From contig JAFCMP010000357.1 of the NCBI GenBank assembly GCA_017506865.1, positions 377,001 to 441,000 of the forward strand: DNA of 64,000 nucleotides, in the 5' to 3' direction. Below the pieces are notes generated by a model. The model made no database searches and had not been told where the DNA came from. It saw only the letters and a program-made list of their open reading frames with translations. This DNA comes from Tribonema minus. Taxonomy: Eukaryota; Sar; Xanthophyceae; Tribonematales; Tribonemataceae. Positions 20,830-60,200 of this stretch are shown here, piece by piece. Numbering within the stretch: position 1 is the first letter of the stretch; each line of letters starts with the position of its first letter. The position numbers were made by a program, and so were the translations under genes.

Positions 20830-23800
20830 ATGACTCAAAGAGTAGCGTCCCTCGAGGGTGCCGCCCTCAACCTAATAGCTCTCCGGGAGGACTGTAGAGA
20901 GGAGCTGATAACACTACTTACAGCCCTCCCTGGCCGAAAATGCTTAGTGCTGGACAGAGCACTGGGGGGACTTTTGAATCATGTAATACCGGAAGGCGCA
21001 AAGCTGCTGCGTGAGAAGGGAGTTGTACACGTGCGACAGCTGGGGAGTGGTGACCTAGGGCTGCCGCAGGATCCACACACAGGGAAACCTGAGCTGCCGG
21101 AGCATGTGGTGTATCTGGTGCGGCCGAGCGTTGCACACACAAAGCTCATAGCGATGCAGGTGCAGGATGGGGTGCGGGCTGGGGTGCCGCTCGATTACCG
21201 ATATAAGGTGAGCGTCGATCTCTGCTGCTGTCCTTGACTGACCTTCACCGCCGCAGCAACCGATGCTTCAGCCACTGCTGCCGCCAGCACTGCATCAGTT
21301 GACAGTAACGCTCGTTGTAGAAATCATTGGGGTACGCCAACAAACTGTGATTGTGCGCTGCGTCATGCGTGCACGACGTGACATCTAGGTATCAGGCTGA
21401 TCCCAGGTGTGTGCGCTTCAAATGCGTTGCCTATCATGCTAACGCGGCCAAGCGCAATACTGGATGGGGCTGGTAGCTGCATTGTGCAGTGCTGATCCAT
21501 TTCTGGTTCGTCAAGGCCTCGGTGCAACCACACCGCGTATTTATGCCGCCGATGCATTGATGCTGTCGGCCAGCAGCAGTACTCTTCACATGCCCGCGAA
21601 CACACGACAACTCTGCGCACCAGCAATCGCGGTCGCATGCTGCTCTCGATCTCTGGCGACCACTAGACACACAGGTGCTCTTTGCACGCCAGCAACCACA
21701 GCGTGTTTCTCTCGACCCCCTGCGCCGTGCCACTTTGCACGCCAGCGATCACAATCGCGTGTTTCTCTCGCTCCCCTTCGACACGCTGCACAGGTGTACT
21801 TCGCACACCAGCAATCACAATTGCGTGTTTCTCTCCGACCCTGCCCCCCCTTGACACGCTGTGCAGGTGTACTTTGCGCCGCAGCGCACGCTCATCTGCG
21901 AGCAGGTGCTCCGCGACGAAGGCGTAGCATCGCGCATCGACATTGCAGATCACCCCCTTGACCTCATACCCCTGGACACGGACCTTCTATCCCTGGAGCT
22001 TGAGGGGGCAGTGGGCGCGGCCCTACTGACCTCCACGGGGGGGGCTAGCTGGGGGTGCGATGCGGGGGCGGGGGTTACGGCCGTTGCCAGGAGTTTGATC
22101 AGGCTGCAGGCCATGTATGGGGCGATTCCCAATGTGAAGGCGATCGGGCCAAATAGTGCGGCTGCGCTGCGGCTCGCGATGCGTACGCGGCGCGAGGTGA
22201 GCGATGAGAGAGTGTCACTGGCATGTTGATGTTGTCCCCGTGTGCTTTGTCGTCGCCCGGAGGGTGCGGGGAAGTGCCATAGGTAGTTCACGCAAATCGC
22301 GGCATTGGAGACCAGGTCATGCGTTGCCAATGGCAGGTACAATCGTTTAAGGCGCTGAAGCCATTGGTGTCCTTGCAGGTGTGAATGGTCTGCAACTGGG
22401 CATAGAGCATCACTTGACGTGTGCAATGTCTTGAGGATTCGACTGTCTGTAGCCAGGGGGGGGCTCTGCACACCCATATACCGCACATTGCACGTTCTGC
22501 AAACAGAGGGTATGCAGACAATTTGACCACTGCCTGCCTCGAACGATGTGATTCTGCTCTCATTTGCCCCTTTGGACTACTTTGAGAGACCATGCCCCGT
22601 GATTCTGCTCTAATTTGCCCCTTTGGACTACTTTGAGAGACCATGCCCCACAACATCTTTGATCTTGTGTGAATGCCATGCACGTGTGCTGCGCCACGAC
22701 GAATGCCACATGCATGTGAAACCTGTGACATTACATATGCCGTGCTGGCACGCTGTTATATGTTTACCCTAACCCTAACCTAACCCTAACCTTTAAGTCG
22801 CCATGTCAAGGACCACTCTCGACGATGCACGCTGCCAATGCTGACATCGAATTGCTCTGACCCTTGTATGGTCACTACCATACTTACAGACCCATGAAAT
22901 GCCCATGCCACGCTTCACCTTGGCAGCAAGACTACGGTGTACAGTACTTGAAGCGAGGCCAATGTCTAGCGGCACCGACGTTGGGCACTGGGTGTTCATA
23001 GCGTGTTTGCAATGAGCCCATGAAGATGAGCGCTAATACTGCTGATAATGCTGGTCAGGTCGGTAGAATGCGTTGCTTCCTCATATCATGATCACAGACC
23101 CCCCTGCAGTCTGCCAGCCCCGAGTCATGCAACAGTCAGCGCTCTCTGTTCGGTGATAACCTTGTGGTTATCGTGTCGCAGTTGCTATGTGGCCAGGTCG
23201 TGGAGCAGTTATTGCTGACTGTAACTGAATAAGCGGTTCTTGCGTTGAGGCGTGCTGCAGGAATACGACCCCGCCAACCCTGCCCTGGGTACCTCTAATG
23301 TGGAGATCGACACGCTCATCATGCTCGATAGGTGAGTGAGACCTTCATCTTGATGTGAATTGTGTACTGTGAGTTCACATGTTCTCATATACTTTGAAGT
23401 ATATCAACGTGCGCATGCGTAGACTATGGAGGGCTTGGTTGCTCGGTGCATACATGATGTTTTGCATGTTTCCGTCGACGCACAAGTAGGTATACGAAGC
23501 TTCATGGCGCGGCGCTTCTGAACACCACCATCATTGCATCTGGGCACTCTCCATTTACACCATGCCACATGGCTATGCTGTGAGCGCAATCCATGCCAAA
23601 GCATTGACTGCACGTGACAGGCGCCTTGGAATAATGCTTGCAGGTCTTCAACTGTTCTCATCAACACGATCTGACATTGACTGAGAGCCTCAATATGACA
23701 ACAGATCTCATGCGATGTGGCAGCGCTCAAGTGGCGTTCTACCCACCCGGCGTAGTGTCACTGGTGCAAGTGTCCCTTTCCCGTGACCTCGCATGCATGT

Positions 23801-26800
23801 CCAGCTTCATGTGTGACGTGCCCTGTGCCGCTGCGCACACAGATAAACAAGCATTTGCGTACACCACACGCGTGCGATGACCACGCATGCCTGTCAATTA
23901 ATCCAACTTCACTGCCTGTAATTGTTCAACTTCACTTCATGTGTGACGCACCCTGTGTGCGCAGGTCGGTGGACCTGGCGTCCCCCCTGGTGACCCCCCT
24001 CACCTACGAAGGCCTCATCGACGAACTCCTGGGAATTGCCAACGGCTTTGTCAAGCTGGACGCAGAGGCGCTGGGCGAGGCAGAGGAGTCGAGCACTGCT
24101 GCGGACCTCCGCAAGCAGGTTGCAGTTCCACTGAACTCGAGCGACCCGCTGTACGCTGCCACCAGGGACCTGAGCGTGGAGAATCTGGGCCCGTATCTGC
24201 AGGGGAAGGTGGGTGGGTAGGTAGCAAGGTGTCGGAGCACTGCAGACTTGATGGTAAAGACACTGCAGTTGCAGTTCAAATGGGCAGATTCTGTGTGTGT
24301 GTATCGGTCACTTCTATGCACAGCTCGGCTTGAAGTGGAACGGAGGGTGCCTTTGCACGTCAGTGCGGCGTGTAATAGTCTTGCGGGCAATGGCAGGTAG
24401 CACCAGATGCAAAAACAGTTGTACTCACCAAGGTTTCATCTGAACACAGCGACATAGTGAGTGCAGACTTTCAACATCATCATCCGCGTACAATGCTTGG
24501 CCGATCTTGATGAAGTGGTTGCGACCCTCGCAGCGGCATTTCGTTCGCAGCAAGTAGAGTATCAGTGTTGTGTTGTTCTCCGCGCTTGTTCTAGAAACTG
24601 TTGCCAGTGCTTGTGATACGTGAGCATCACCAAAAGGGCTCCTGAGCACTGCTGAATACATTTTGGCCACGAACTGCAGCAAGGCCTTGGAAACTGGAAG
24701 TGTGACAGTGCTGCGCACTGCTTGAAGCTGATGACGCTCCATACCAATCACGTCTACGAGAGCTACGCATTTTTCGCGCCATTATAATTGGTGTTCGCCC
24801 GTGCTGAGTTTGGAAACAATTGTCAGTTCTTGTACATCATCATAAGGTGTGTGAGCATGACAAACGGAGCTGTGCTGCACAGCGTTGGCTGCTTCAGAGA
24901 GCAACAGCCCCCGCGAGAACCAGCCACAACAGCAGCATCATTGCTGAGCACTGCTTGCTGCTGGTGACGCTCCAGGCCAAGGACAATCAGCATCATCGCT
25001 GAGCGCTGCTGTGCTGCTGCTGTATCATTGCTGAGCGCTGGTGTGCTGCTGCTGGTGACGCTCCAGGCCAAGGACATCCGCGAGAGCTACGCGGCGTTCC
25101 GCGCCAACAAGGACCAGAGCATCACGGAGATCCACGACTTTGTCAAGCGCATACCGGGCCTCACGCAGACGTACAAGTCTCTGAATCAGCACATACATAT
25201 AGCGGAGCTGGTGAAGCGAACGACGGATGGTGCACCGTTCCGCCAGCGCTGGCAGACGGAGCGCAGTATGCTGGAAGGTCAGCTAATGCGTGATACTCGA
25301 CTCTTGAATCGCAATACTTGACTTGACTCATAACGCGATGGACTCAGGTCCGAGAGTGGAGATGTCATGCCAGAGGTGCTTGTGCAGGTTCGTTTTTATG
25401 CTCTGCATCGACTCATGACTCAAACCCATTTACCTGGTGTTGGTATGCGCTAGACAAGATGGTGAGAGTGCTGGTGCAGGCAGACAGGGAGCAGCACACC
25501 AAAGACGGCATGCATACCCTTGAGCGCTGCTGAGCGCTGCCATGCTGGGATGCAAACCATACGCTCCTCAATATAATGTTTCGCGCACCAAAACACTGCA
25601 ATGACGTGAGCGCACCAAGGAGTGGCGCACCCGTGAGCACTGCTGCGTAAGAGAAATGCAGACTGAACCGCTCCTGAACATGTTCCCTTGTTCCCCCCCT
25701 GTCTTGCACACCTTTACCACAGGAGAAGCGTGTTTTGACGCCATCGAAGACCTGATCTGCGAGCAGGCGCCGCTTGTGTCAGTGCTCCGATTGCTGTGCC
25801 TCCAGGTGAGCAGTTTTGACCTCAATTGTGCATCCAGGTGTCAGCAACGTGCAGAACATGCTCTGCACATGTGTCGAGCGTTGTCCTATGGTGGTCAATA
25901 CATACCTTTTTCACTCGGCCCATGCCCAAGGGGCAACGTGATGTTGTTGTTACATGAGGCAGTGTCAGAAAGAGACTCTTCAGCAGATGCACACATGCTT
26001 TGATGCGCGCTGGGCACACGAGCATAAAGCACGAACAGTAGTTATGTTGCATCGGTGTGCTGGTGCTTGTTGTCGTGCGTCAATGCGCACTGAAGTCAAA
26101 AATGACATTCGACTGTGCCACGAGCATTGCGTTGCTTGCCACCGCGGTCACGATGTCACTGCGGTATGCCATGTGCGACTGTCATTGATTCTCGACTCTG
26201 ATACTACATTGCCTTGCTGTGCATCAGTGTGGCTGCCGCTGCTTCGTGTCTGCTGGTATGCAGCGCTCTTCAGGATCACATTGCGCAGATGTAGTTCATC
26301 CAAGCTCAGTCGTCGCACATAACAAAACGCTGCTCGCTACATCATGATGCGCGGTGCCGCCTCACCTTCTTGTGACTGTTCTTACGCGTGTAACTGCTGC
26401 GTAACTGCCCTAACTGCAGAGCATCACTCGCGGCGGCATACCCAGCGGGCGCTTTGACGCGCTGCGCCGCGACATTGTGCAGACGTACGGGTACGAGACG
26501 ATGCACGCGCTAGCGGCACTTGAAGCAGCGGTACGTACCCACAACACTAAGTACTCGTTGAAGTTGAGGTTCACGCTACTGTGACAATGCCATGTGCCAT
26601 GAAGACACCATTTGATGGAACGTTTCGGTACCGTCTGGAGGTTGCATATCGATTGGAGCAGCACGCAGTCATATATTGACCCTTAGAGGTGCTTCACGTG
26701 CCTTGCTTCCGCATGAACGTTGGTAAATGTGTAACGTACTGCAAGTATTTTTTTGTATATGCCCCTTTTAGTGTCGCCTTATCACTAATTGCACATCGTT

Positions 26801-29407
26801 AAGCCCACATTATTTGAAAGTCAATGTTGTGCATGTGTCAAGACACATCAGCTCATTGTACTCTCAAGCACTGTGCAATTCCTGGATGTGCTCCGCGTAT
26901 GCCCTGTGGAAATGCCCAGTTCTGTGAGCTGTAGTGACTCTGGTGCTGTCAACATGTGCGCAGTAGCACATGCTAGCACTGCCTGCCTGTTGTTGCTTGT
27001 CATGAGCCGCCACGGTAGTTGATTTTGCTGCTCTCACAATCGCCTCGTGCGACCATGCGACACTGCGCCACAGTTGATCACGGCTTTGTGCGCTGGCCAG
27101 CGCAGCGTAGACCTACAAAACTGCCACCTTGGTTCTTGCACACTGAATCTCTGGGACCAGCTGGCTGACTGCTGTTGCATCATCTCTTGACGTGGCTGTT
27201 ATCGCTGCAAGCACGCAGCACTGATCTGCTTTGCCACCAGACACCACGCTGGAGAGACTGATGGCCATGGCGCGTTTGTGTAGCACACCAACGACAGCTT
27301 CCCGACTTCCAAGGCTGCGATTGCAGCTACCTGTCTCTGCTAATCCCCCCCCCCCCCCCCCCCACTCTCCAACACAATGTTCAATGCCCCCAAAGCCCAT
27401 AATCCACGCGCTCGCCCCACTCAAGTGACCCCGCCCTTCAGCTCAACCGCACCCCCTCCCGCCACCCGCAGGGCCTGCTGAAGCCGTCACCTCCCCCCCA
27501 AACACATTGCACAATGCCCCCAGAGACCACATTTCTCGCACCCACCCCATCTACATACCCCACTCTACAGACTCAACCCTACCCCCTCCCCTCCCATCCA
27601 CCCTTAGGGCTTGCTCCTCCCCCCCAACACACAATGCTCAACGCCCCTGAAGCCGCACACGCCCCATTCAAGTGATCCCGCCCTTCAGCTTAAGCCTACC
27701 CCCCCCTCATCCACCCTTAGGGCCTGCTCAAGCGCAACGGCCTCGTTTGGGTCGTCGACGTTCCTCTCACGCACGCCATCCAAGTACCCCACTCTACCAG
27801 ACTCAAACCTACCCCCCCCCACACTTCACTCCCAGGGCCTGCTGAAGCGCGGCGGCCTCGGCTGGGTCGTCGACACGGCGGCGGCGGCGCCGTGGGCCGC
27901 GCTGCGCCGCGCGCTGCGGCTGCTGAGCGATGTGACACCCGCCGCATCATCTTCATCATCAGCGTCAGCCGCGCCGCCGCCTCAGGATATGTCGTACGTG
28001 TGCGCAGGCTATGCGCCGCTGAGCGCGCGCGTTGTGCAGGCGATGGCGGGTGGGGGAGGCGCGGGGGATTTGGCGGCGGCGCTGCGCGTGCTGCCGACGC
28101 CCGTCCTGGACTTCAAACAGGTATGTATGGTGTTTCTGGTGAGAGAGAATGAATACTACTTCGAAGTATGTAGCTGGACTGCTAGTATCACGCGGGCGGC
28201 CATTTGTGCAAGGTGGCACTGATGCGACGACGGAGTACTGGCACATTTGCTGTTCGCGTAGGGTTTGAACTTCAAGCAGGCAACGTTCTGGGTGTCTACA
28301 TTTGTACATTAGCACGTGGTGTGGTGTCAACTGCCACCTCCTGTCATGATAGAAGGATGTCAAGAAGAACATGTGGATACTCACTTTGTAAGTACTTTTT
28401 TGGCATCCAGTGCAAGAACTTGAATTTGCTACTGCCCATGCGCTGAACATGCCACTCCCCTCCCCCCTGCACATGCCTGCAACAGTCATCATGCGTGCAG
28501 TGCTGCTGTGCTGTATGTGGTGCTGTGATGCCTCAGGGTGCTGCACCAACTGTTTCGCATACACTTGATCCACGAACAGCAATATATATGTTGTTGTGTG
28601 TACTGTGCTACCCTCAGGGCGCTGTTCCCGTTGATTTACATACAGCCATATCTAGTCCATCTACAGGGCTCAGCAGCAGAGTGCAGGTCAGTGAGTGTCG
28701 GGTTGAGAGAGGATGAGAAGGCGCCACGTACCTCCAAAAGAATCTTTGAGGTGTATCTCCAAAATAATCTTTGAGATGCCTTGCATTTGAGATGCAAAGT
28801 ACTTGTTGTGGTACTGTCTACTCAGAAGCGCTTGTCTGCGTTCTGTGATTTGTGGTGTGGCTTTGCTGCTTGCAGCACTTGTGCTGCTGCGTGACATGCC
28901 TGTGAAGCAGTGGGTAGGTATACATTGCAATTACTTACAGCTGTTCGCACTGTTGCATCATGTGATGCAATGGCTCCTGGTATGGAAGGCTGACGTCACA
29001 ACAACACTTGTCATACTGCGTCACAGACCCCTGTACAGCAGTTGTTGAACATCAACACACTCATCAGATACCAGCCTAAACTCCCTTTTGGTTGAGTTTG
29101 CACAACGCGGTGACCTGTCACATCCTTGTAAGCTGACCATTGACGCGCCCTGCGTGGCACCGCTTTGCCGCACATCCAGCAGGATGCGGATACACGGCAG
29201 CAGGGCTCACAGGAGAAGAAGCGGCCAGTGCTGCTAGTCTACTACGTGGGGGGCGTCACCTTTCTTGAAGTAGCCGCGCTCAGGTTCCTCGGCCGCCAAC
29301 GCGACTTTCCGTTTGAGGTCGTGGTCGCAACGACCAAGATACTGAGCGGCGATGCCTTTGTCAGGACGCTCATGCCGTCTTTTGACAACGGCCTGGCGCA
29401 AGATTGA
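20830..29407 (+). CDS. VPS33: Vacuolar protein sorting 33 (Sec1/Munc18 family)
   Basis: SM-family subunit of the HOPS/CORVET tethers that clasps SNAREs for endosome-lysosome/vacuole fusion. Nine exons: 20830-21207, 21867-22196, 23261-23331, 23965-24208, 25067-25277, 25723-25805, 26420-26530, 27836-28120, 29183-29407. The sum is 1938 bases, 645 residues, with all phases matching; VPS33 is usually 600-690. Hallmarks: VYFAPQRTLICEQ, DLIPLDTDLLSLE, LQAMYGAIPNVKAIG, TLIMLDR/SVDLASPLVTPLTYEG, VSVLRLLCLQ, IVQTYGYE, YVCAGYAPLSARV and, near the C-terminus, YYVGGVTFLEVAALRFL, the last diagnostic of VPS33. The last exon has a CAGCAG tandem acceptor (29180 or 29183, one Gln of difference). Three introns carry duplicated copies of the following exon's acceptor border. 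Confidence 0.97.
21600..21890 (+). repeat. Acceptor-border array before VPS33 exon 2
   Basis: Units of about 60-72 bases begin near 21669, 21729 and 21788 and end in the true border at 21861. Each resembles CACAGGTGTACTTCGCACACC, the true acceptor plus exon start being TGCAGGTGTACTTTGCGCC. Between the cores lies CAATCACAATTGCGTGTTTCTCTC. A weaker unit precedes them near 21620. Confidence 0.85.
22548..22649 (+). repeat. 51-base tandem duplication in VPS33 intron 2
   Basis: Two copies of a 51-base unit starting GTGATTCTGCTCT and ending GAGACCATGCCCC differ at a single base (C/A), so the duplication is recent. It does not include an exon border. Confidence 0.95.
22767..22792 (+). repeat. Interstitial telomeric repeat CCCTAA
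   Basis: Four units of CCCTAA, one shortened to CCTAA, lie inside VPS33 intron 2. The type (TTAGGG on the other strand) fits animal-type telomeres, as found in stramenopiles and haptophytes. Confidence 0.85.
24732..25105 (+). repeat. Acceptor-border duplications before VPS33 exon 5
   Basis: The true border GTGACGCTCCAG/GCCAAGGACA (25055 on) has a near-perfect copy at 24955-24986 that keeps the AG. An older, diverged copy at 24732-24780 extends over about 35 exon bases (CGAGAGCTACGC and CGCGCC are still recognisable). CATTGCTGAGC repeats fill the space. Confidence 0.85.
27466..27880 (+). repeat. Acceptor-border array before VPS33 exon 8
   Basis: Copies of (C/T)AGGGCCTGCTGAAG lie at about 27472, 27604 and 27716, followed by the true border at 27834. 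The copy at 27716 continues for about 40 exon bases and would encode GLLKRNGLVWVVD, versus the real GLLKRGGLGWVVD. Pyrimidine-rich CCCCCACTC stretches separate the copies. Confidence 0.88.
28157..28168. repeat. Palindrome TACTTCGAAGTA (copy 2)
   Basis: Perfect 12-base palindrome 37 bases into VPS33 intron 8, identical to those at 8993 and 51063. Confidence 0.7.
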
Positions 29408-29878
29408 CGCGCCAGCGTAATAAAGTGAGTGCACTCCACAGCCGAATTGGGGGAGGTTTCCTGCGCGTTGCTCGGGTACTGGCTGTTGCAAGTGTGCGCA
29501 TGTTTAAGTCGCACTGTCTGGCCAGTGATTGTCCTGCTGTTTTGTTGTGATGCTTGTTGAGCATGCATTGCGCAGCAGGACCAGCATTTGAAGCACAACG
29601 CACATGTACCCATGCGCGTATACTGCAGCCCGCAACTGTCGCACATCTGGTTCAGTAGATGACTGAATTATCATGGCAAAGCATGTGTGCGCGGCACCGC
29701 CGTGCTGGGTGGCCGCATGTAGTTGATGAGCTAAGATGAACATGTAAATTGTCTGTTTCCGTTTGCGTAGCCGCTCTGAATGCTGTCGCTCTTGGCAGCA
29801 GTACATGCACTGCACTCATGCACGCAGAGATCCAGTACAGGCAATTGAGGATCAGGCTTCATAGAGGGTAGCCATTTG

Positions 29879-31578: not shown

Positions 31579-33450
31579 GTGCTGGTGCTGGCGGCGGCGG
31601 TGGCGGCGGCGGCAGTGGCGCCGTCTGTGGTGGCGGCGGCGGCCGTGGCGGCGGCGGGGGGGGTGTAGGCATGCCAACTGCACCTCCATCGCCGCCACCA
31701 TCCACGGCCATCTCCGTCGCACCTAGCATGGCCCCCACCATGCAACCCACCATGCTTGGAACCACCACAACATTTGGCGGCGGCGGAGGCGGTGGCGGTG
31801 GTGGCGGTGCTGGTGGTGCTGGTGGTGCTGGGGGACCAGGGGGGGCTGGTGGTCCTGGCGGCATTGGAGGTGGCGGGACTTTTGGTGGGGGTGGCTTTGG
31901 TGGGGGGGGCGGCGGGATTGGTATGATACCGGGGTCACGTGGTCCGGCAGGCCCTCCTGGGGCCCCAGGCAAGGGTGGGCCAAGTTGTCGTTCTCACCAT
32001 CAAGAATCCTTAGTCATATGGGGAGTTGCATGATTGACTGTAGTGACAGTGGTGGGCGAATCTTACTGTTCAAACCCAGTGCATGCTGCACCAGTCATTG
32101 AGACAACAACCTGCTGCAGGGGGGTGCATACACAAGATCATGCTGTTGAACCTCGTACGGTCTGCTTTGATGGCAACTCCAAATGCATGCGCGCTGGCAA
32201 GGATGCTCAGCGTCCCTCAATACTGCTTCTACTCTCTCCAACCATGCACGCCGCACCATACTGTTTGCTTCCACAATGGCACTTCCTCAGAAGCCTGCTG
32301 CATTGCCACACCCGACATCAAAGCCATGTGTACACAGATGCACTCTTTCTTTTGCTGTCCTCTGACGCATTGTTGCGCCCCCCCCTCACTACCCGCAGGA
32401 GGCCCTGGCGGTGCCGGCGGTGCCGGCGGCGCCGGCGGCGCCGACGGCGCAGGTGGCGTGGGCGGCAGCGGCGGCGCTGGTGGACGACGCAGGCGACGCC
32501 CTACGACCGTACCATTGCCAGCCCCTTCTGCGGCACCGACTCTGGTGCAAACACTTGCATCAACGCCTCACGTCACGGCGCCTCAGACGGCGCCCGTCAC
32601 CGGAGCCTCCTCCATCGCCCCCACAGCTGCTCAGACGCCTGGAGCGTCACCGGCGCCCACGGCGCAGTCCACAGGTGGCGGAACGGCGCCGGGCACGCGC
32701 ACGGGGTCTCCCGCACCGTCTGCTGGGCCCACCACTGGACAAACGGCGACGTCAACGTCGGCCGCAACGGCTCCATCGACGGCAGCGGCTACACCTTCTG
32801 GCACGGCGGCACAGACGGCAGCGTCAACGCCGGCCGCGACGGCTCCTTCGACGACAGCGGCTACACCTACTGGCACGGCAGCAGAGTCTCCTGCGCCTTC
32901 CGGTGGGCCCACCGGAGGCCAGACCCCTGCGCCGACCGCTGGCGCTACTGCTGGCGCTACCGCTGGCATCACCGCTACTGCTACCGCTGGCGCGACCGCT
33001 GCCGCGACCCTTGGCGCGACCGCTGGCGCGACTGCTGGCGCGACCGCTGGCGTCACTGCTAGCGCTACTGCTGGCGCTACCGCTGGCGCTACTGCTCAGT
33101 CGACGGTCTCAGGGACTGCTGCTGGCACTTCCGGCTCGTCCCCTGCTCCTTCCGCTGCGCCGAGCGTGGGCCAGACAGCTGCAACAACTGCTGCTAGCAC
33201 TGCTCAGGCAACAGTCTCTGGCACCGCTGCGGCTTCTCCTGCTCTTCCGCCGGCCCCACTGTTGGGCAGACAGCCGCATCAACGTCTGCTGCTACGTCAT
33301 AACTGCGGAGGGCAGGTGCTGGCTGCTGGCGTGCTCCGAGTTAGGCAGCGGAGGCCTTCACGTGAGTCGACCATACCGCTGGAGGGGGAGAAGAGGGGGA
33401 GTGCACGCAAACTACAAGCTCATGCATTTCAAGCTGGTCAGAGCTGCTGA
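31579..33450 (+). CDS. Collagen/mucin-like protein, copy B (5' incomplete, frameshift near 3' end)
   Basis: Exon 31579-31974 encodes Gly runs, APSMAPTMQPTM, more Gly runs and a GPAGPPGAPGK collagen tail. It joins in phase 1 to 32399 on (GGPGGAGGAGG), followed by a long Ala/Thr/Pro/Ser/Gly mucin-like tract with about 13 units of ATAG type at 32940-33098. Compared with copy C, one C is missing near 33240: before it the protein ends SPAL, while in the next frame PTVGQTAASTSAATS-stop restores the family C-terminus. As read, the frame runs on to a stop at 33450 with an unrelated tail. The signal peptide and Cys-rich exons are not found. It could be a decaying copy. Confidence 0.55.
32940..33098 (+). 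repeat. 12-base coding minisatellite
   Basis: About 13 units of GCTGGCGCTACC type. Differences between units are mostly GCT/GCG and ACT/ACC, i.e. silent in the Ala-Thr-Ala-Gly frame and amino-acid-changing in the Arg-Tyr-Cys-Trp frame, which tells which frame is used. Confidence 0.85.
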
Positions 33451-45300: not shown

Positions 45301-48300
45301 CATGAGCTGACATGGCTTTGATACTTTTGGAGCCAAGCGCTTGGGGGGCTGGTCCTCTCAGGCCGTGAGCTGACGCGGTCATCAGGCTTCAGGTACAGAA
45401 CCTCCATGATCCCGCGCTCATGTGTTCATGTGCACATGGGAGCAGCATCATTTCTAGCATATTATTTCAGGCGCTTACTTCTATGCGATTTGGTTGACAT
45501 GAGCCAGCGTGGCTTTGAGAATATATCGCGGGTCACATGCGCTCGTTGTCGACCCACACCAGGTTCTGTTTGCAGCGGTTCATACGACGAGCACTGACTA
45601 CGCTCATGCCTCAATAGGCATTGTGGTGCCTCATGGCTTATGGCTGGCAACATGTGGACATGTGTTGTAAGGTCACCCATTCTGTAACTATCCAATCCCG
45701 CAAACAGCTATGGCATCCGGGGGGGCACATACAACTGTCTCTTAAGTCAGTGTGCAGTATGTGTACCATGTCGTACTTCAGTTGAAGTATCGGAAGACGT
45801 GTGTGACTGTGCCGCAAAGTGCGTGCGTGCAGACCTTGAAGTGCCGCTGATGCTGCGCAAGTCGAGTGTGGTCACGCGCGCACCGCAAGTCGTGGAGAAG
45901 TATATAGTGTCATTGGTTTTGCAATGCGCCGGTCGACTGCAGGTCATGACTTGTTGCATAAGTCCCAACCTGCTGCGATGGCACATGAGGCTCAGGTGCG
46001 GGCCATTGCAACACGCATTCATGGCCAACTAGTCTAGTAATGCATTCGCCTGCTTAGAAGTGCGCCCTGATCTCGCGTAGGGCCAGCTCTCTTGCTATGC
46101 TTTATCAACAACAGCAAGTCAATGCAGGCCACAAACTCGGCCATCTCATTCACCGCCCCTTCTTCAACCCGTGACGCTCCACTCCGCCACAGCGCGCGAG
46201 TCACCTCGCTGCTCGACGTCATCGAGGACGTGGCCCAGGGCTCCTACCACCGCACGCAAGTGCGCGCCTCCCCCCCCCCCCCCAACGGAACCCCCAAGAC
46301 CCCCAAGAGCTACCCTGCGACCCCCGTGGCGACCGCCAAACCCCCCCTCAAAACCCCCTCATCCCCAGCGCTCAGCGTCGCAAGCGGCGCCGCCGAGAAG
46401 TTGCTGGGAGACGCGGGAGTTGAAGATGATGAGAGCGGGGGGGTCGTCGAGGAGAGCGAACGGGTGATAGAGTTTGACGGCGTGCCTCTGACGACGCCCA
46501 ATGGCGACGTGTTGGTGCGCAGCCTTACGTTCAGGGTGGAGTCGGGCATGAACGTGCTCGTGGCGGGGCCCAACGGATGCGGTGAGTAGGGTCAAACCCT
46601 AGCTAGCGGATGCAGATAGTCATCAAACCTTACTAGAGCGTAGCCGACGGATGCAGTCAGTGCGCCAAACCCTACTTAGCTAGTGGGTGCAGAGAGTCCC
46701 CAAACCCTAGAGCGTAGCCAACGGATGCGGTGAGTGGTCAAACCCTACTTAGCTAGTGGACGCCGAGAGTCCCCAAACCCTAGAGCGTAGCCAACGGATG
46801 CGGTGAGTAGCCAAGCCCTACTTATCTCGTGGACGCAGAGAGTCCCCAATCTCTAGGGCGTAGCCAAACCCTGGCCAATGGACGCGGTGAGCTGGCTGTT
46901 AAACCCTTGCTAGCCCTAAGTGGCTGTGTTGCCTGCATGTTGCGATATGTGAGCATGGGCCGTGCACGCCGTTAAAGCGCTTGAGGTCATCGCTCAGGTT
47001 TCAGGCATGCAGATGGGAAGCGTAGTTTGTAGAGTTGCATCTGCTGTCCATGTCTGCTGTAAGTGTGTGTAGATACGGGGTGACATGGGCAAGTGGGTGA
47101 GTGAAGGTTGATACTTGCAGTGGAGCATTCGCCTTGCTGTGCAGCTGGTGTGCACTACGGTCATCCCTGCAGTCTCAGGACTTCATTGTCAGTAGTGGTC
47201 TGCTTCTGTGCATCATTTCACACAACAAAGCCGAAAACAGTGTACCCGTGCAACGCTGCTGTTCATGTTCCTCATTACGATTACCACGCAATCTGGGAAA
47301 GGCACAGGTGCCTGCGACAGATATGGTCAAGTTATTGCAGGTGTTAGAAGTATGCATCACACTCTCATAGTCCCCGCATGGCTGACAGTGCGAACTGCGC
47401 CTTGCGCAGCACTCTCCGCTGCAGCCCTACAGTCTCACCACAATGTCCTGCATGCGCCATGCATAGTCTTGACCACGCCTGCCTATCTCACGCGTGCAGG
47501 CAAGAGCTCCCTTTTCCGATTACTTGGCGGCCTCTGGCCAGTCCGAGGAGGGCGTCTGGTGAAGCCCATGCGGAGCAAGATGTTCTACGTTCCACAACGG
47601 CCATATTTAGCGTTGGGTAGCCTGAGGGAGCAGGTGCTGTACCCCCAAGCGGTGGACTCGCGCGCACCGGCAGCAGACGATGAACACCTTCTGGCAGTCA
47701 TGCAACAGGTGCAGTTCACCTTAAGGGTCAAATTTGCAAATTTGCACGTTGAACGATGTGATGCCGCTACATGATGGCTTCACAGCGGCGACACACTGAC
47801 AAGTTGAAGTACCATAGCTCATGCCATGTATGTGGTGACGCTCCTGTTGTGCTCAGCAAGTGTGTACTATGGCTCAGTGCACACGGATTCGGTCATCGCG
47901 CCTGTGCTCGTGTATGTCTCGTGGGGCCACAGTGATGCGGCTTCAACAACACTGCAGGGACCTCTGCGTTCCACACAGCAGGATGCCGACGAATTGCGAT
48001 CAGTCATGACCTGCAGCTGCTGTTTACGCAGACTAGTGTTGAAGAGGCTGCCACAGGACACATGTGTACACACGTGTACACGCCGGACAGTGCATGGCTG
48101 TCGCAAGGCGCACTGTTCACGTTGCTGACACCACCACCTCCCTTCTTGACAGGTGAAGCTGGAGTATCTGCTAGACCGTGAGGGCGGTTGGGATGCGGTC
48201 AAAGACTGGGCGGACGTGCTCAGCGGCGGCGAGAAGCAGCGCCTGGCCATGGCCCGCATGCTGTACAACAAGCCGCTGTTTGCCATTCTTGACGGTGAGT

Positions 48301-49174: not shown

Positions 49175-52100
49175 ATGCGAGCGCTAAGCCTCTCGTGTCT
49201 TGCGTCCTTGGGGTTGGTCAGTCGTATCGCCGCCTTCACGGCTGTGGCGCCCTGCCAGGCGCCTTTGGCCAGGCGCAGTTCGGTCAGATCTCGATCAGCC
49301 ATAAGGACAGCAGAAGCGGAATCTGTGCCGACGCCTGTGCTGAGCTGGACTGATTTGGGTGCTGCACTTGCCGAGGGCGATGGTCTGAAGGTGAAGCAGG
49401 CTCTAGATGGCTTGAAAGAGGCGGGGGAAACACGATTATGGGACAGTGTGACGATGTGAGTCAAGCCCGCTTGCATCAACTCTCTTCTTAGCAGATGCTT
49501 GCATGCTGTGCTGTGCACGCTACGCTGTGCGTCCTCTTCGCCTGGCTCCTGCCTAGTCCACACTATTGCATAATGTAATTGAGAGATCGCCAAGAGCTTC
49601 AGCTGAAGGCCACTTGGTGCGCTCTGCGCTTGCGCCACAAGCAGGTTCTACCAGCGCTACACTCTGGTAGAGATGATGGCTGCGACGGGCATTCGCGGCG
49701 ACATCATCGACAAGCTAGGCCTCAATGGCCGGCGAGACATCGACAGGATCGCATTCATCTTGTTTGGCTTGGTGGTGGGATCATTTCTGAGCTCGACCAG
49801 CCTCATTGAGTTCCTGCCAGGGCCTGACATTGTCAGGTTCACCGCATCATGGGTGATTGCTTTCATACCATATGGATTTCTCACGCTGGGCATCGCAAAG
49901 CCGGCGCTGCTGCAGAAGTCGCTGGTCAAGGCGTTTTCTGTCAACCCGGAGTATCGGGAGAGGCTTGCGAGGTGAGCGAGCAGCAGCTTACTCTGATATC
50001 GTAAAAAACATTGTGTTGCCATGCGTCACTCTGATCATTCAAGGGTCATATCATGCACGCCGAAGCTTGTGTAGTATTGGCGTTGAGTTATTACTAATAG
50101 TCTACGTTGTGTGTAATGCGTTGATCCTTCGTGATAACAAAACCATGCCGCATCGCTCTGCGCATCGCCTTTGCAAATGCCAGCAGATGACAGCTCCGAA
50201 AGCCGGCAATGCAACATATTCGTCACGGCAGATCCAAGTGTCTTGTCCATGCATGAGTGCGGCCTTTTTGCACTCATGCACAATGCCTCTGTCAGTACAC
50301 CGTTTGGTACAAACGTACTTCACTTTTATGGTACACCTGCGGACTTGCGAGTACAATCATCTCTGCAGACTTGCGAGTACACTTTCCTCCTGGCATTGTC
50401 AGGCTGCATATCGCTGCCACTTACTACGCCATTGCACAGGCTACACACTCATTGGTGTAAGCAAACCCTCAATGACATTGGAGGTTTTTGAGTTGAAGCG
50501 ATCCTGGCAACTGACATGTTGTACATAATTTGGTCTTGTGGTGGTAAAACATGAGTGAAAATTGCTGCAGTCACCTGACACAAGCTGGCAGTAATGCGCA
50601 GATACTACATTCAGAGCATGTTGGCCGTCTACATGGCTTTTACCGATCGTCTGCTACTTCCAGCCATACGCAAAGGACAAGCTCATCACGCTGTAGAACC
50701 TTTATGACACCTCGTACGTTTTTCACCACCATGTTTCAAGCACAATGTTGAGCTACTTAGTGTGTGCTGTTTGATGAGATGTGTGTTGAAACACGCAGCG
50801 GCCAAGATGCCTACCCTGTACCTGGGTTTGAACTTTAGTGCCTCAAGATATACGGCGTAGTGAACTCACACTCCAGAAGGATGAAGCAGATATGCCTCAG
50901 CATCTGTGTGTGTCTTGTAGGCATCAGCAAGATGCAGCCTGTACCTGCTGACATGCACTTTTCGCAGGTGTCAAACGCACACACAGAGTCGACTATTTGC
51001 ACTACGTGTTCGATAGCACTCCCATGTCTTACTTCACATACAAATTACTGAACGATGGCGCATACTTCGAAGTATACCGTTTCAACGGGCAGAATTCATG
51101 TATCCCATACTTGAAGTAGATGTTTGCATTCAAGGGTACTGGCAGAAATTTTCAGCAGTTTTGTACTGTTTTGTTCATGTGTACAAGCTGCAGTGCAATG
51201 GTACAGTTACTGGTGACTGCCCATTGCAGAAGACACTGGTGCAAGGCTTTATCAGGGACATTGTCAGAAACACCTTCACCAGTGACACATGTAAGGGCGC
51301 ACACATACATACATACATACATACATGCCCACATACAAAAGTAACCATTGTCATGCACTCGCTGCTCGCGCAGACACGAAGCGGGGCACTTTCTGGTGGG
51401 TTACCTCTGCGGCATGCCCATAGAGAGCTACCAGGCGGACTCCGTCACCAATGCGGTGGCGTTCTTTCCCGCGTTCTACAGCTCTGACGCGATGCTGCGG
51501 CGCATACCGGAGCCGGAGCTGCTGCGGCTAGCCGCCGTATCGCTGGGGGGGATTGTTGCGGAGTGCTTGCGGTTTGGGACGAGCGAGGGGGGGTATGCGG
51601 ATCTGATGCAGCTTAACGCGCTGCTGCGGTGCGGCGAGGAGAGGCTGTCGGACAGGGAGCAGCAGGTCAGTGCTCAGCAGTGGGAAGGGGGGTGGTATGT
51701 TGATGCTGCACCTCACAGACAGGGAGCAGCAGGGCAGTGTTCAGGCGCAGGCAGGGATGGTATGTATTCACTCTGCAAGGGATGGTATGCGTTTATGAAG
51801 TGAGTCTTGTGAGGCTCACGGACAGGGAGCAGCAGGTCAGTGCTCAGCAGCTGGAAGGGGCTGGTACGTATTGCTGCAAGGCATGGTTTGTATTCGCGAA
51901 GCGAACTTTGTGAGGCTCTTGGATAGGGAGCAGCAGGTCAGTGCTCAGCAGCAGGAAGGGATGATAACATATTTAAGTTGAGCTGCAAGGGATGGTATGC
52001 ATCTACGCTGCGGATTTGTCCGTGAGGCTCACGGACAGGGAGCAACAGGTCAGTGTTCAGCAGCAGCGGCGGCAGCAGCATCAGCAGCGGCAGCAGCATC

Positions 52101-53210: not shown

Positions 53211-54247
53211 GGCGGCGTGTCAGCGCTTCTGAGCATCATGCGTGACTGATTGGATTGGAAAAGGGAGCGTTGTGGTCTGTGGTTAGGGTTAGAAGTATGT
53301 CTCCCATATACGCCACCACCGCTGTGTTTACTAATAGATGTCTATCACACGCTACGACAGTATTTTCTACATGCATACCTTCTTGGTCGTGGCGTTAGCC
53401 AAGCCTGGCCTGTACACCATGCGACCGTCGCACTATCCTGTCATGATCGGCGCGAATTCCTGCACGTGTAACCAATGCTGCGGCGTGATCATGCGTGAAG
53501 CAATACAATGTGCTGTCCATCACACACAAAAGGCCACTGCCCCCCCTGGCTGACATAAATGCCCCCCTGCTTTGGGACTTGGTTTGTTCAATGCTGCGGA
53601 CAGGGTGTGTGGCGGTGACAGGGGGCAGCTGTCGGATCTATTCAGAGCTGTAAGTGTTACTGAGCGGATAGGGTGTGTGTGGCGGTGTAGGACAGAATTC
53701 GGGGCCTGTTTCGACGGTTGGGATTAGGGTTCGGAGCCACTTCCCTTTGGAGGGTTGAACGGGTGATGCCTTGCGAGAGGGAAGTGGGCACAAACAAATC
53801 AAGAAGTGAACATCAACGCGGAGGTATCAGGCGGCGTTCAGCAGGCGGACGCAATGGGGGAAGGTGAGAGCCGCTGTTCCCAGCGTGACCCAGTAAGACG
53901 CCGGGTGTCGGCGGGCTGGCGCCATCCGCCATGCGGCTTCGATCTTCAGTGGTTGATGCCGTTCATGGGAGCACAGCTGCGTGTCGTGCAGAATTGGAGT
54001 GTACAAATCTCATGCGTGGGCTGGGCAACACTTTTCCGAGCCCGCAGCCACCTGTCGGTGCCACTCTTGGTACAAAAATCACCTTCAACCAACCGAGGCC
54101 CATCGCGCTTTTCTGGATCGGGTGGCCCAGAGCAGCCAATATCAAGCTCTCTTTGGCGACGGCTGTCCCAAGTGGTCTGCACGAGGCCCCCTCGCTTCCT
54201 CAGCTGACGTGTTGTGCGACCATCTCTGTTCGCCTTGCTCGCTGCCG
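53211..54247. other. Intergenic; promoter side of the RRM gene
   Basis: Contains GGTTAGGGTTAG at 53281 and a degenerate tandem of ACAGGGTGTGTGGCGGTG near 53605 and 53670. A 232-codon plus frame (53931-54629) reads through the first RRM exon in the wrong frame and is not called. Confidence 0.45.
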
Positions 54248-57200
54248 ATGGCAGCTAACAACAGGACCGTGTTTGTTGGCAACCTATCTTGGAACACGAC
54301 CTCGGAGGAGCTGCGAGACTTTATGGCGAGCCAGGGGGAGATCGTCAGCTCTGAGGTTCAGTGCCATGCTGACTCCGGGCGCTCCAAAGGCTGGGGGTGA
54401 GTGGACCGACTCGTACTGCGATGAACTCTCGGAGGCGTTTATCCTATCCCTCGGCCCTGCATGGCGACAGGCTTCTTGTTCATGCAGCACTGGGGCTGCC
54501 ACGATGAAGGAAAGTCGTGCTTATGGGACCAACTCCGACATGCAATCTTCCTTTTTGGCTGTCCAGAGCTGTGTTGGTTGTTATGGCACGGTCTCCGTCG
54601 CTGATGCCAATGCCAATGCGGGGCTGTGACGCCGGCAGTGGTTCGCCCACAGCTGTGTACACATACGCATGCAGAACATATAGTGATACAACTTCTGGTC
54701 GACATGATGATATATGAATATTTGTCACCCTTGTTTGCTGAAACCTTGCACACCGCTGCTAACCATGTAAACTACAGAGTTCTACTTTGTATAGGCTAGA
54801 GCATTGAAGCATGGTGCTGCCATCTGAGCGACTGAAAGACCCTCTGTTACGCCCCGGCCGCAACAGCTGCAGCTTCAGTGGAAGCATTGCCGAAGAAAAC
54901 CTTGGGCTGTCCAGGAATGAACCTGGTTCATGGTTGCATTATGTGTAGCATACATGCATCGCCGTAAGCAGTCTTCTTTGTGTGAGTGAGCTCAGCAAGC
55001 AACCCGCTGCCTCACTTTTCAGGTCAGCGTAGCAGTGCTCAAGTGGAGCTAGAGTTGCGCCAACATGAAGTGCTAATGCTGCCTACATGCCACTGTTAGA
55101 GTGCACGACCATTGCACGCTGGCAACCATCATCTGTGTGGCTGCTTGAAGTTTTTTTGAAAGTGTCGCATGCCATAGATATCCTGAGCTGGCCTCTCGCA
55201 TCTAAAGGTCTGATTTGAGAGCAGGAATGCTGCGCCTGACCCATCACCGAGTTTCAGTGAGCAGCAACACTGGCATATTGAGATTGGCACACAACTGCTT
55301 GGATGAAACTTTCTTGTTGAAAGGAAAGGAGCAGCAATCTCAAAACATGTAGCTACAGCAAAGCTTACAGCATTATTCCTGTTGAAGTCAAGTCTGGAGC
55401 TTTGCGGTACAAAACATTCTGATGTAAGTTTGATCGAGTCTGCTGCGATAGTCTAATCCAAGCCTCAACAGGTCTCGTGCTGTGCCTTCCAGCTTAACAT
55501 TGGGGCCAATTGGCAACAGCAAGAGATTGAAAATCTGATGGGCTAAGCGCTTAGCCCTCCAGTTCAACATAGGTGCATCAACGTTCGCTGACACACAAGT
55601 CCGACTTGGTAGTCAGCAGTACTCAATTACAGAACAACGACATCTTTCTCAGCCCTCATACTGGATGCATCAATATCTGGAGCTAGCTTTGCAGTGTGTA
55701 TTTGGGCATGCACGAGCTCCACGTGATTGGGTATGTTGAGACTGCTGGCAAGTGTGCGCTTTGCATGGTGTCGCACCATTGGTGTGCCATCAGAAGTGTA
55801 AGTTCTTCACAAGCGCACGCCCATCACCTGTGTGCCTTGGACTGCCATTTTCAGCCCAACATCACCCCCCAGCGAGTGGCTCTTGACAGCTTTCACATCT
55901 GTCATGCACTGAGAATTCCTTGCTATGTCTGTCATGCACTGAGACTTCCTTGCTATGTCGTGCAGCAAAAGTGATGCTGACTTTGTCACATTGTCAGCGA
56001 CGCCCCGTGCTCGTGATTGATCTCTCAACAACCTTGCGCTCCCTGACCTAATATGTCACCCCCTCCCCCAACTTCAACTTCAACTCACAGGCTCGTCCAG
56101 TACAGCACGCCCGAGGAAGCCACGGCGGCCATCGAACTCCTCAACAACGCAGACCTGGGGGGGCGGTCAGTTCACCTCAGATTCGACCGCACCACCATTG
56201 AGACCAGCGGCGGCTTTGCGGTGTTTGTTGGCAACCTGCCGTGGAGCGTCACCGACCTGGACCTGACGGCGCTCTTTGCAAAGTTCAACCCGTTCGACGC
56301 GCACGTGAAGACCAACATGACGGGCCGCAGCAGGTGATTGAAGCCCGGTAGTAGGGCTTGGGCCTGAGTGTTAGGGCTACATGGGGCTTGTGTGACAGAG
56401 GACCGAGTTGGATCGTGGGCTCTGCCAGCAGCCCTTGCATTAGGTTTTGTATGGGAGTGAGGCAGTGTGTACAGGTGTGGCGGCTTACATAGCTCGCTTT
56501 GGCGATACAACACGGTAACTTCTGTAAGGTGCTTGCGTGCACAGTCGCCATGGATGCCGAACCATCGCATAGGTTGGCTTTGGCTTTGGCTGTGTGTCCA
56601 TGTGTATGGGTTTGCATAGTCAAGGTCGTTAGTGCATGGCTATCACACATTTGTTGAAACTTTGGATTTACCGCCATCTGGCATGGGGGCGAGAATCGGC
56701 CTTTGAGCCTCTGCATTCCTCCAATTATGCCTCTGAAGAACTTCATACTTGAAGTCCACAAACAAGGTACCATTTTTTTCAGCTGCTGTCCTGACCTACA
56801 TTGTCTTGTTCTGCTTTGTCAAGTCCTGCACGTATGGTGTACTCCGTGCACGCAACATGGTTCATGGTAATGAATCGTGTATCATGGAGATGCCAGCACG
56901 ATAACATTATGCATCAAATTTCACGCATGGCTTCTGATGCCATCGCTGGCAGCGGCTTCAGTTCCGCCAGAAGGCTGAGCAAGAATCCATGTTTGTGCTA
57001 CATACACAACCAGACAGCATGTGCGGCGGTAGTCAGTGGAGCTTCACACCATCTTGGCTGACTTTGCTTTGGTGCCATCACCTTGCCCCAACCGCCTTGT
57101 GCAGAGGATTTGGCATTCTCCGGTTTCATTCCCCGGAGGAGGGCCGTGAGGCCATTGAGGCCATGAACGGCTTTGAGATTGAGGGCCGGCACATACAGGT

Positions 57201-60200
57201 GATACATGCATACCCCTGTTATCGACTCTATGCTGCATATACAGGTACTACTTGCATTTTTCTACTTTCAACTCTATGGCTGCCTGCCTGCCCGTGCACC
57301 TCTGTTACAATGATGAATTCACATGTTCTTCAATGAAAACGAATCAAAAGATCGTAGAGCTCTAGGTGACAAGGGATGGTTAGCCACAAGTGCCTTCCAT
57401 CAATAACCGTGGTCGCCGCTGCTGCAGATATTGGCCACGAGTCAAATGCTCTATTTCCACTTGAGCACGCTGGCACGTGTAAGCGATGTCAAATTGGAAG
57501 TAGAGATGTTCGTATCCACACTCATGCAACGCTGCTTAGTAGCAGCGCGGAGCAGTGTGCACGTTGCGCGCTGAATAGACATGTGATTTAGATGAGCCCC
57601 TACCTTTCACATGATGCATCAGGGGCATGTTGCCTTGGCAGATAAGCAGTATGTACTGCACTACATGATCTCTGGCGTACACTGTCATACAAACACATGT
57701 TGTTTCCACTGTTGCCAGTTTTAACCACGTGACGAAGGGCACTCACGTCTATTGTCGACACACACTTTCAGAACACACCTTTGGGTGATGTGGGGAGGGG
57801 GGGGTTATGTAACTGCCGTAATGGAGCGTCACCAGCTCCACCAGTGATGATGAGCCTACCTACATGCCTAGTGTCGTGAGTCTGCAGCTGGTGAGTGAGT
57901 AGGGCGCCAATGCCGCTCACACAGTAGTTGGTGATAAACGGATGGTCACGTTGGCGGCCTGCGGGTAACACTGGTGAAGAGCATGTGCTTCTGTCCATCA
58001 CGGATCAGATTCGCCTTTGTCAACGTTGAACAGTGACAGTCGACAGTTACTTCACAACACTCACTTGACAGTGTGTGATACATGAGCGGGAAGTGACAGT
58101 TTTGAAGGTATCAAACCACGGTGCACAGCTCGTCAGAAAGTGCCACTGCGGCCGCTCGATGCACTATGTTGTGCTGAAGAAAGCGGTCTTGGAGTGTTCC
58201 ACACAAAGAACGCAGCGACGCTTTGACAGTTTCGCAGATGAACTTGGTATGCAATGCCAGATGTGAGTCGCCATATAAGTTGAAGTTGTGTGGGCACCCT
58301 GAGCTCACACAGCAACGCACGCTGCACTGCACACCGTAGAGCTCAGATGTGGGCATTGCGGGCTCGTGTAAGCGACACGCAGGGATTTTGTGATGGCGGC
58401 AGTAGAATGCTGCGAAAGGCAGCGCACACGCGCGTCGGTGCTCAGCAAGTGCGTCGTATCCAATATACGATTCAGATGCGTAAAGACAAGCATGCGCACA
58501 TGCCAAAACATGTCCTGGGATTCAACAAGCACGGTCTCACGAGGTGCGTGGTAGCAGCTCATCACAGCTACTGACAAAACTGCAAACTGTTCCCGCAATG
58601 TAGGTGCGAGAAGATAGGGAAGGCGAGGTCCGCGGAGGCGGTGGCGGCGGCGGCGGCGGCAGGCGCGCAGCAGCAGGCGGCGGCAGCGGCGCCCCTGCTG
58701 AAGGAGCGGCGACGGAGGCAGCGCACACAAGTCCGGCGCCGGCTGCGGCTGCGCGCAAAGAACCGTCTGGCTGCACAGGTGATGATGCGCTTCTAGCATT
58801 GCAAAGCACCGCCTGGCTGCACAGGTGGCATCGCAAAGCACCGTCTGGCTGCACAGGCGCAAAGCACTGTCTGGCGGCACCGGTGATGCGCTCGTAGCAT
58901 CCGCATGATATACATCAGCAGGCGTGCAACTTCAAGTTCAACAGCGTGAGGCTGAGGATGACGGATGCTGCTTTGTCAGGCATCCTGCTGCAAAAGAAAT
59001 GCAGCGTCGTACGCTGAAAACATGTGAGTGTAGTACTCTTGAAAGTACAATCAAGTACAGGTGTATGGTACAACAAGTGCGAGTGCACTGCGGTACACCT
59101 GTGGGGTCTTGTCAATGCCTGGTACATCGCTGCGTGGATGAGGCCTTCTCCCAGCTTCTGATACCTTCCATCGCGCTTTTACAGTCGGGCAGGCGGGAGG
59201 AACATAAACAGGTGCACAGCGCATGCATATCCTCTGCCGCTGCCCTTCTATCGCTGCTGTACTTTTCCTACGACTGCTGCGCTTCACACATGTGAGAGTC
59301 GCAAAGTGCCCCCCCCCCCCCCCCCCCCCCCCCTCCCGGCTGCCATGCAAGACTTAGATGTAAGTTATATCATTATTCACCTAAACCAGTAGTCTAGGAC
59401 CTTGATGCTACATTAGCACCTCAACATTGGTCACGTACTGCAAATGCACACGCTTGAGCTTGGGATGCTTCAGGACCTGTTGGACCAAAGAATTCACTAG
59501 TCTACCATTGAAGCATTTTGTGCAATTGCCTGGTTGCTCGCAACAGACATTGAAGACTTACATGGTGTCATCGTGTGCGCTGCTCTGGTCGCTGCTGCAG
59601 TCTTTGTTGGCAACCTGGCGTGGACCACAACCACGGAGGACCTCACCGAGCACTTCTCCACAATGAACGGAATGGTCAGCGCTGAGGTACAAGCCACTGC
59701 CGCCGGCCGGTCCAAGGGGTGGGGCTTGGCCACATTCTCCACACCAGAACAGGTGGGCTGTCGGTGCTTCCTTGAAGCACAGTCATTTCACCAGTCCAAC
59801 ATTAAGTTGAAGTTGGGGAGGGAAGTCAAGTGGCACATCGACTGCCCCGAGTTAAAGTTTGTCATACGGGTGCAGATAGAGGTCTGAGCGGTTGGAAAGT
59901 GGTAGCATGGACTGGGTGTGACGTCCGTACCATAGGGTGTTTGAAGTTGCACAGCGGTCAGCAACCTCAACAACTGCAGATGCAAGCGACCATAACCTCA
60001 GCCGCTACGATGCGCGCGCGTTGCGTGCGAATGCAGCACTGTGTGGCTTGCAGCGTACGAACGCGCACTGTGTACAGTACAAGAGTGTACCGTGAACACT
60101 GCATTTCAAGCGCGTCGTCCTCTACAAACATTCGCTTCGCCACGCAGTTGGCCACTACTCACGGTTACAAACATGCTCCCATGCTGACGGCTGATGTAGC

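Follow-up and report, generated by a model that had tools for sequence, protein, structure and literature searches.

In the accessible parts of the literature, tandem duplication is described as a source of introns: one review calls it the sole route of intron gain shown in vivo and cites the Rogers model, Hellsten 2011 and Gao and Lynch 2009 for gain through tandem duplication of AGGT-bearing segments (PMC3443670), and in the potato RdRp gene a tandem duplication crossing an intron-exon boundary made a new spliced intron (PMC4974935). Ectocarpus autosomal introns have a median length of 524 bp, and its tandem repeats are spread fairly evenly across site classes (PMC12477816). Here we analyse a 64,000-nucleotide stretch of the Tribonema minus genome (contig JAFCMP010000357.1, or C357, positions 377001-441000; "the window"), in which introns of unrelated genes carry copies of their own exon edges, together with a sample of introns from the rest of the assembly (158.2 Mb, 554 contigs). 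We consider it likely that genes undergo frequent local tandem duplication, that copies crossing a junction become intronic and decay neutrally, and that a probable excess of duplications at junctions lies on top of this process.

Exon-edge copies in the window and across the genome

Across 121 introns, 46 of 242 junctions (28 donor and 18 acceptor, in 39 introns) have the adjoining exon edge copied within their own intron. The direct copies number 84, whereas reverse-complement queries give 3 and shuffled introns 2; a coverage scan places inverted copies in 0-1.4% of windows. Exon-edge copying is thereby confirmed as real and not limited to the window, and the lineage-wide process proposed in the earlier note is borne out at the level of this genome, where genes outside the window also have junction-crossing copies. 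Three adjoining, apparently paralogous ABC-transporter loci on contig C146 (L011, L012 and L013) carry donor copies of similar unit lengths in like introns, so the duplications there may predate the gene copies; leaving out the two loci paralogous to the third retains 77 copies at 42 junctions in 35 introns of 26 genes or loci. A looser filter yields 134 families in 154 introns, simple repeats included, versus one in the shuffled set.

The 121 introns comprise 34 in the window, 27 of them from hand-made models and 7 from a gene finder, and 87 elsewhere, so that 94 rest on the gene finder. Those outside the window come from 52 loci found in a genome search for ABC_tran and DEAD domains, picked by protein family and not by repeats, and from 100 kb of contig C511 and 20 kb of contig C1 with coordinates set beforehand. 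The finder is a hidden Markov model trained on genes of the window; tested on this training set, it recovers them with the RRM start altered. Self-training fused genes, and the window-trained model was used instead. Twenty-nine predicted exons resembling a neighbour were removed before the main counts. Introns of 60-6000 nt entered the counts of exon-edge copies, splice signals, codons, intronic sides, borders, AGGT and TTGAAGT; those of at least 150 nt entered the second anchor count and the family counts, the latter leaving out 3 introns with flanking exons copying each other, and those of at least 250 nt the coverage scan. Flanking exons scored at least 12, or at least 8 in the looser set.

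The hand-made window models cover VPS33 (9 exons), an ABCD3-like transporter (ABCD, 12), an M41-like gene (4), an RRM gene (6) and a single-exon zinc-finger gene. All five are stop-free and complete, and the first four together contain 27 introns. Pfam supports VPS33 (Sec1), ABCD (ABC_membrane_2 and ABC_tran) and the RRM protein (three RRM stretches), and the M41 match of the M41-like protein lies under the Pfam cut-off. Each of these introns, extended by 80 nt of flank, was compared with itself without gaps (score at least 16, simple repeats masked). This gave 19 direct-repeat families, nine of them junction-spanning and one more copying an exon end, and three dinucleotide shuffles per intron gave 0 families. 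Two of the 19, in VPS33 intron 7 and ABCD intron 8, resemble parts of the adjoining junction array, and independent events are therefore somewhat fewer than 19. Six junctions among the window's 34 introns pass a test that scores the exon part of the copy only. The affected borders, and two intron-only duplications for contrast, are as follows, all on the plus strand.

21601-21885 (+), VPS33 intron 1 acceptor array: junction 21866/21867 (21853-21885); copies at 21601-21660, 21670-21700, 21701-21782 and 21778-21835
24706-25092 (+), VPS33 intron 4 acceptor array: junction 25066/25067 (25047-25092); copy at 24932-24985, an older one at 24706-24768, and more repeats at 24988-25054
27462-27874 (+), VPS33 intron 7 acceptor array: junction 27835/27836 (27827-27874); copies at 27708-27759, 27595-27616 and 27462-27484
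42608-42775 (+), ABCD intron 5, upstream exon end: 42608-42636 copied at 42747-42775; donor 42661/42662, donor copy degenerate
43060-43177 (+), ABCD intron 5 acceptor: true edge 43131-43177, junction 43139/43140; copy at 43060-43106
45124-45397 (+), ABCD intron 8 donor: true edge 45124-45191, junction 45186/45187; copy at 45330-45397; unit of 206 nt, 93% identical
46570-46867 (+), ABCD intron 9 donor, at the end of the Walker A exon: true edge 46570-46589, junction 46581/46582; copies in a 73-nt array to 46867
51641-52066 (+), M41-like intron 3 donor: true edge 51641-51710, junction 51665/51666; copies at 51712-51777, 51773-51860, 51873-51966, 51982-52017 and 52022-52066
57189-57278 (+), RRM intron 3 donor, weak (73% identity): 57189-57232 copied at 57235-57278
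58753-58888 (+), RRM intron 4 donor: true edge 58753-58784, junction 58778/58779; copies at 58796-58827, 58828-58857 and 58857-58888
22548-22649 (+), contrast, intron-only tandem duplication in VPS33 intron 2: 51 nt, 98% identity
55898-55959 (+), contrast, intron-only tandem duplication in RRM intron 1: 30 nt

These rows match the three VPS33 introns (1, 4 and 7, all at the acceptor) and the single M41-like intron (3, donor) of the earlier note, as well as its statement that both border types are affected, with acceptors in VPS33 and ABCD intron 5 and donors in ABCD introns 8 and 9, the M41-like gene and the RRM gene. The four ABCD introns it listed correspond to four borders but to only three introns (5 twice, 8 and 9), and its single RRM intron is intron 4, to which intron 3 adds a weak case.

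ABCD aligns with a PDB chain named ABCD3 without gaps across the junctions of introns 5, 8 and 9; VPS33 aligns with a chain named VPS33A without gaps at the intron 4 and 7 junctions and with a two-residue gap at intron 1. This check of affected junctions covered these two genes of the four, and the copies there are therefore not overlooked coding sequence. Among candidates sharing most words, the best named protein matches of ABCD come from Ascophyllum, Ectocarpus and Pylaiella (55-61% identity over 52-61% of the query), with oomycetes next, and those of VPS33 from Pylaiella, Chrysoparadoxa and a transcriptome labelled Chatto- (46-50%); the matches listed from these candidates include no near-identical protein for either. 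From these relationships we infer that the host is a photosynthetic stramenopile close to the brown algae; a green-alga identity, entertained at first, was rejected. A gene-calling or assembly artefact would draw on the dependence of 94 introns on a window-trained finder, but the pattern also appears in the 27 hand-built introns, with ABCD and VPS33 checked by homology; the copies are diverged, often multi-copy and spread over the 26 genes or loci, and shuffles and reverse complement yield almost nothing. We give an artefact hardly any credence.

Origin and decay of the copies

Most copies end close to the junction: 78 of 84 reach to within 15 nt and 67 to within 3 nt, so that 6 and 17 fall short, respectively. 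The duplication unit has a median length of 130 nt (10-90%, 86-202), of which the exonic part accounts for a median of 53 nt (41 junctions with a copy within 15 nt). When an anchored comparison is extended with gaps, homology on the intronic side exceeds the 97.5% level of shuffled sequence in 28 of 38 families, and in 44 of 67 copies. We read the copies as tandem duplications running through the junction, the intronic half of which appears to have decayed faster. Their borders are sharp, judged from unit ends by eye and dinucleotide counts; by the same means no AG or GT motif, nor any other dinucleotide, stood out at the exon end of the unit. The ABCD intron 8 donor, the sole sequence searched genome-wide, has two local copies, these counts being lower bounds.

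In the explanation we favour, local tandem duplication of stretches of about 20-260 nt would be frequent in the genes of this alga. When a unit crosses a junction, the gene would survive because the outermost original splice site, the first donor or the last acceptor, stays in use. The inner exon edge and its splice signal would then be intronic and free to decay neutrally, and the real exon edge would be held by purifying selection; because the exon twin is held in this way, an exon-bearing duplication should stay recognisable longer than a purely intronic one, perhaps up to twice as long. Repeated duplication would build arrays of up to about five copies and add intron sequence. Junctions probably also show an excess beyond this, at most about two-fold and more marked at donors, which may reflect either a mutational hot spot at the border or an effect of the sample.

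Codon counts, made on multi-copy families with a single open frame (19 of 41 families were excluded for an ambiguous frame), point to constraint on the exon. Changes specific to the exon, at sites where it departs from a state shared by all copies, number 0/1/16 at codon positions one, two and three, as expected under purifying selection on the exon. Copy-specific changes, where one copy differs and another equals the exon, are distributed 31/22/37 with no significant bias (p=0.15), and copy-copy mismatches run to 15.8/13.1/20.7% (p=0.076). Of 28 indels, 23 shift the frame and 5 have a length divisible by three; in-frame stops number two in 590 codons of copies. By these codon and indel counts, the copies do not keep the reading frame and coding constraint seen in mutually exclusive duplicated exons, and the inner copies look dead.

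Tandem duplication also invites a reading as relics of intron birth, in which an AGGT-bearing exon segment was duplicated in tandem; the earlier note had offered this as one possibility. The units are indeed tandem duplications, and donors read AG/GT across the border in 80 of the 121 introns. Birth of this kind predicts like donor and acceptor contexts, yet these occur in just 3 of 121 introns, which are 114-184 nt long and where copies may have been mistaken for exons by the gene finder. The copies moreover sit within longer introns and carry intron sequence. Such relics are very unlikely to account for the copies, and the suggestion is not supported.

Placement of the duplications relative to junctions

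Family counts, made on 103 introns (median 614 nt) with up to 150 nt of flank, gave 69 families, of which 40 include an exon edge, 27 are intron-only and 2 are exon-only; the ratio of edge to intron-only is 1.48. The window contributes 10 exon-edge and 9 intron-only families. The earlier note's impression that coding-only and intron-only duplications are rarer thus fits the exon-only class well and the intron-only class weakly. Under a placement null built from the individual lengths of units and introns, 20.1 exon-edge families of 67 are expected, or 27.3 when exon-bearing copies are taken to stay visible twice as long, the largest detection bias; 40 exceeds the latter at P=1.7e-4. In the window the null expects 3.6 or 5.4, versus 10 of 19 seen (P=0.0002 or 0.011). 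Unit length and the slower decay of exonic copies account for some of the excess that a naive count would give.

Simulations of unanchored tandem duplication with neutral decay, indels, deletions and constrained exons, scored with the same code, gave edge to intron-only ratios of 0.50, 0.55 and 0.62, and of 0.54-1.04 in seven more settings. Uniform-placement reasoning had suggested that the excess was a mere artefact of unit length and detection bias; this was rejected on the ten simulations, which stay at 0.50-1.04 as against 1.48. Against a middling simulation (fraction 0.383) the whole sample gives P=3.1e-4, or 5.1e-4 without the two paralogous loci, but the window genes alone (10:9, p=0.15) do not reject chance. 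The most favourable simulation (units of median 200 nt, ratio 1.04) is not rejected by the whole sample (p=0.095). It is rejected by units of at least 80 nt (30:11, p=0.003), and it gives intron-only units a median of 154.5 nt, as against 51 observed. With 12% of events placed on junctions the simulated ratio is 0.86, and with 25% it is 1.38, at a donor to acceptor split of 65:29.

Anchor-by-anchor scoring of the window, which at score 25 picked out 7 of 54 junctions (13%) as against 7% of intron anchors, was abandoned in favour of family counts because anchors cannot tell events from copies. In a second anchor count, 29 of 182 junctions had a spanning copy, as did 53 of 543 intron anchors. 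Outside predicted genes there are 6 repeat families in 25.7 kb (1 in 7.45 kb of the window, 5 in 18.3 kb of C511), and trimmed introns are denser, with 41 in 57 kb (p=0.007; window alone p=0.085); intron-only families, at 0.39 per kb, are not far from the intergenic 0.23. Copy coverage runs continuously from the exon edge into the intron with no sharp peak just inside it, and falls to 1-6% of windows 80 nt inside the exon and beyond. Purely intronic 60-nt windows have a copy in 17.3% of cases within 80 nt of a junction and in 13.1% deep in the intron.

Several observations weigh against a plain account of randomly placed duplications that decay neutrally. The ratio of near to deep intron coverage is 1.32 (95%, 0.99-1.79; 106 introns of at least 250 nt), versus 0.64-0.77 in three simulations, and the junction lies nearer the middle of the unit than uniform placement predicts (mean exonic fraction 0.43, KS p=9e-5; 0.001-0.007 with trimmed ends). 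The fully neutral, unanchored model is too simple for most settings tried. Exon-versus-copy mismatches show a strong third-position bias (7.6/6.2/18.3%), which we attribute to change mostly on the exon branch. All 19 acceptor copies among the 67 copies that come within 3 nt of the junction retain AG; together with the codon bias this suggests somewhat more conservation than simple neutral decay. Donor copies keep GT in 36 of 48 cases and GC in 4 more, so that, as the earlier note had it, most copies retain their splice signal. GT directly follows the copy in 5 of 15 acceptor families, a pattern that fits a cassette exon (binomial p=0.003 at an assumed rate of 0.07, the hypothesis being chosen after seeing the count). 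Introns with a copy are not significantly longer (median 670 versus 564.5 without, p=0.13); of the proposed intron lengthening, the addition of intron sequence by duplication across junctions holds, but no significant length difference accompanies it.

Retained splice signals, third-position bias, GT after acceptor copies and the 29 exon-like calls of the gene finder are what one would see if inner copies served as alternative or decoy exons or splice sites under selection, another suggestion of the earlier note. The codon bias, however, lies on the exon branch and is not significant on the copies, most indels break the frame, most copies are truncated edges some 20-130 nt long, and the PDB homologues of ABCD and VPS33 are collinear without them. 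The copies decay as if neutral, and selected function is improbable, even though a recheck of the GT count raised its odds slightly.

Donors are affected more than acceptors: the last 60 nt of the upstream exon are copied in 28 of 106 introns, as against 13 of 106 for the first 60 nt on the downstream side (p=0.014), or 27 to 15 by family (p=0.09). A copied acceptor, lying upstream, would meet the scanning spliceosome first and hence should do more harm. The heptamer TTGAAGT is a candidate donor-proximal element. It is about ten times over-represented relative to base composition (153 versus 16 expected; one copy at 45270-45276), is mainly intronic, and is not among the 15 top 7-mers relative to an order-5 Markov expectation. 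The first 60 nt of introns contain it 33 times in sense and 3 times in antisense, in 30 of 121 introns as against 2 of 121 at the acceptor end. Donor copies occur in 13 of the 30 introns with the heptamer or its complement in the first 60 nt and in 13 of the 91 others (p=0.0017); without the two paralogous loci the figures are 9 of 23 and 13 of 90 (p=0.015).

These data bear on a stronger alternative to the duplication-and-decay account, namely that duplication is targeted to junctions, the exon-intron border being a hot spot through transcription, R-loops, a base-composition step or a donor-proximal motif, with junction copies primary. The excess over the placement null in the whole sample and in the window, the low ratios of the unanchored simulations beside that of the 25% variant, the long units, the mid-unit junction, the TTGAAGT association and the sparse families outside genes all point this way. 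The window genes alone and the most favourable simulation pull back from it, as do the smooth coverage profile, the shortfall of the 12% variant and the reliance of 94 introns on a gene finder written for this analysis. We regard targeting as possible, though we would sooner expect otherwise. More tentative still is the proposal that borders, donors above all, are hot spots for duplications of about 130 nt coupled to transcription or splicing, perhaps aided by TTGAAGT, whereby introns would grow outward and leave datable fossils of dead junctions. A junction excess is likely, but it depends on machine gene models and simulation settings, and anchoring is not proven. The earlier note's idea of duplication anchored at splice junctions is thus upheld in part: in this sample of introns junction families outnumber the placement null and most simulations, but neither the window by itself nor the most favourable simulation allows chance to be rejected.

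Other window features and comparison with known systems

A conserved dispersed sequence around CACCTAGAGCTCTACRATCTTTTG occurs at 13318-13353, 44450-44485, 57333-57368 (-) and 63438-63473, in both orientations, with 0 expected by shuffling, and is perhaps a short mobile element. A 5S ribosomal RNA gene lies between protein genes at 4684-4802 (Rfam RF00001, 105.9 bits), and a predicted six-exon gene at 5231-11884 (-), with 3579 nt of coding sequence, resembles an adaptor-complex beta subunit by eye. Short telomere-like CCCTAA runs (TTAGGG type) stand within introns at 22766-22792 and about 43106-43125. Repetitive open-frame stretches at 32730-32873 and 36287-36466 share 72-nt units that are 63-83% identical to a reference unit, as would be seen with a pair of related, neighbouring low-complexity genes.

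Dead junctions offer countable traces of intron lengthening in a lineage with long introns, and their age and breakpoints can be read because the exon piece in each has a living twin under constraint. A junction excess, if upheld on transcript-supported introns, would point to duplication linked to splicing or transcription. The copies also carry a warning for annotation, since an ab initio gene finder turned them into the short exons removed here. A literature search limited to one library, as far as its texts were accessible, found no report of pervasive decaying junction copies.

Among described systems, as far as the accessible parts of these sources go, the potato RdRp case resembles ours in that the duplication crosses a border and carries splice signals, and an intron-only duplication of 83 bp lies nearby in potato; it differs in producing one new spliced intron, whereas the copies here are intronic, apparently unused, decayed, often multi-copy and present in 39 of 121 introns (PMC4974935). 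AGGT-mediated gain likewise draws intronic sequence from tandem duplication, with the like contexts being confined here to the three short introns (PMC3443670). Introners also affect many introns of one genome, but as dispersed similar introns (PMC9860276). Exon shuffling in the leucine-rich repeats (LRR) of brown-algal ROCO genes, from the same wider lineage, shares intragenic tandem duplication of exon-bearing segments; there whole 72-bp exons are duplicated in phase and spliced, whereas in Tribonema minus most of the duplicated pieces are exon edges that are cut short and apparently dead, and the genes are of other kinds (PMC11378527).

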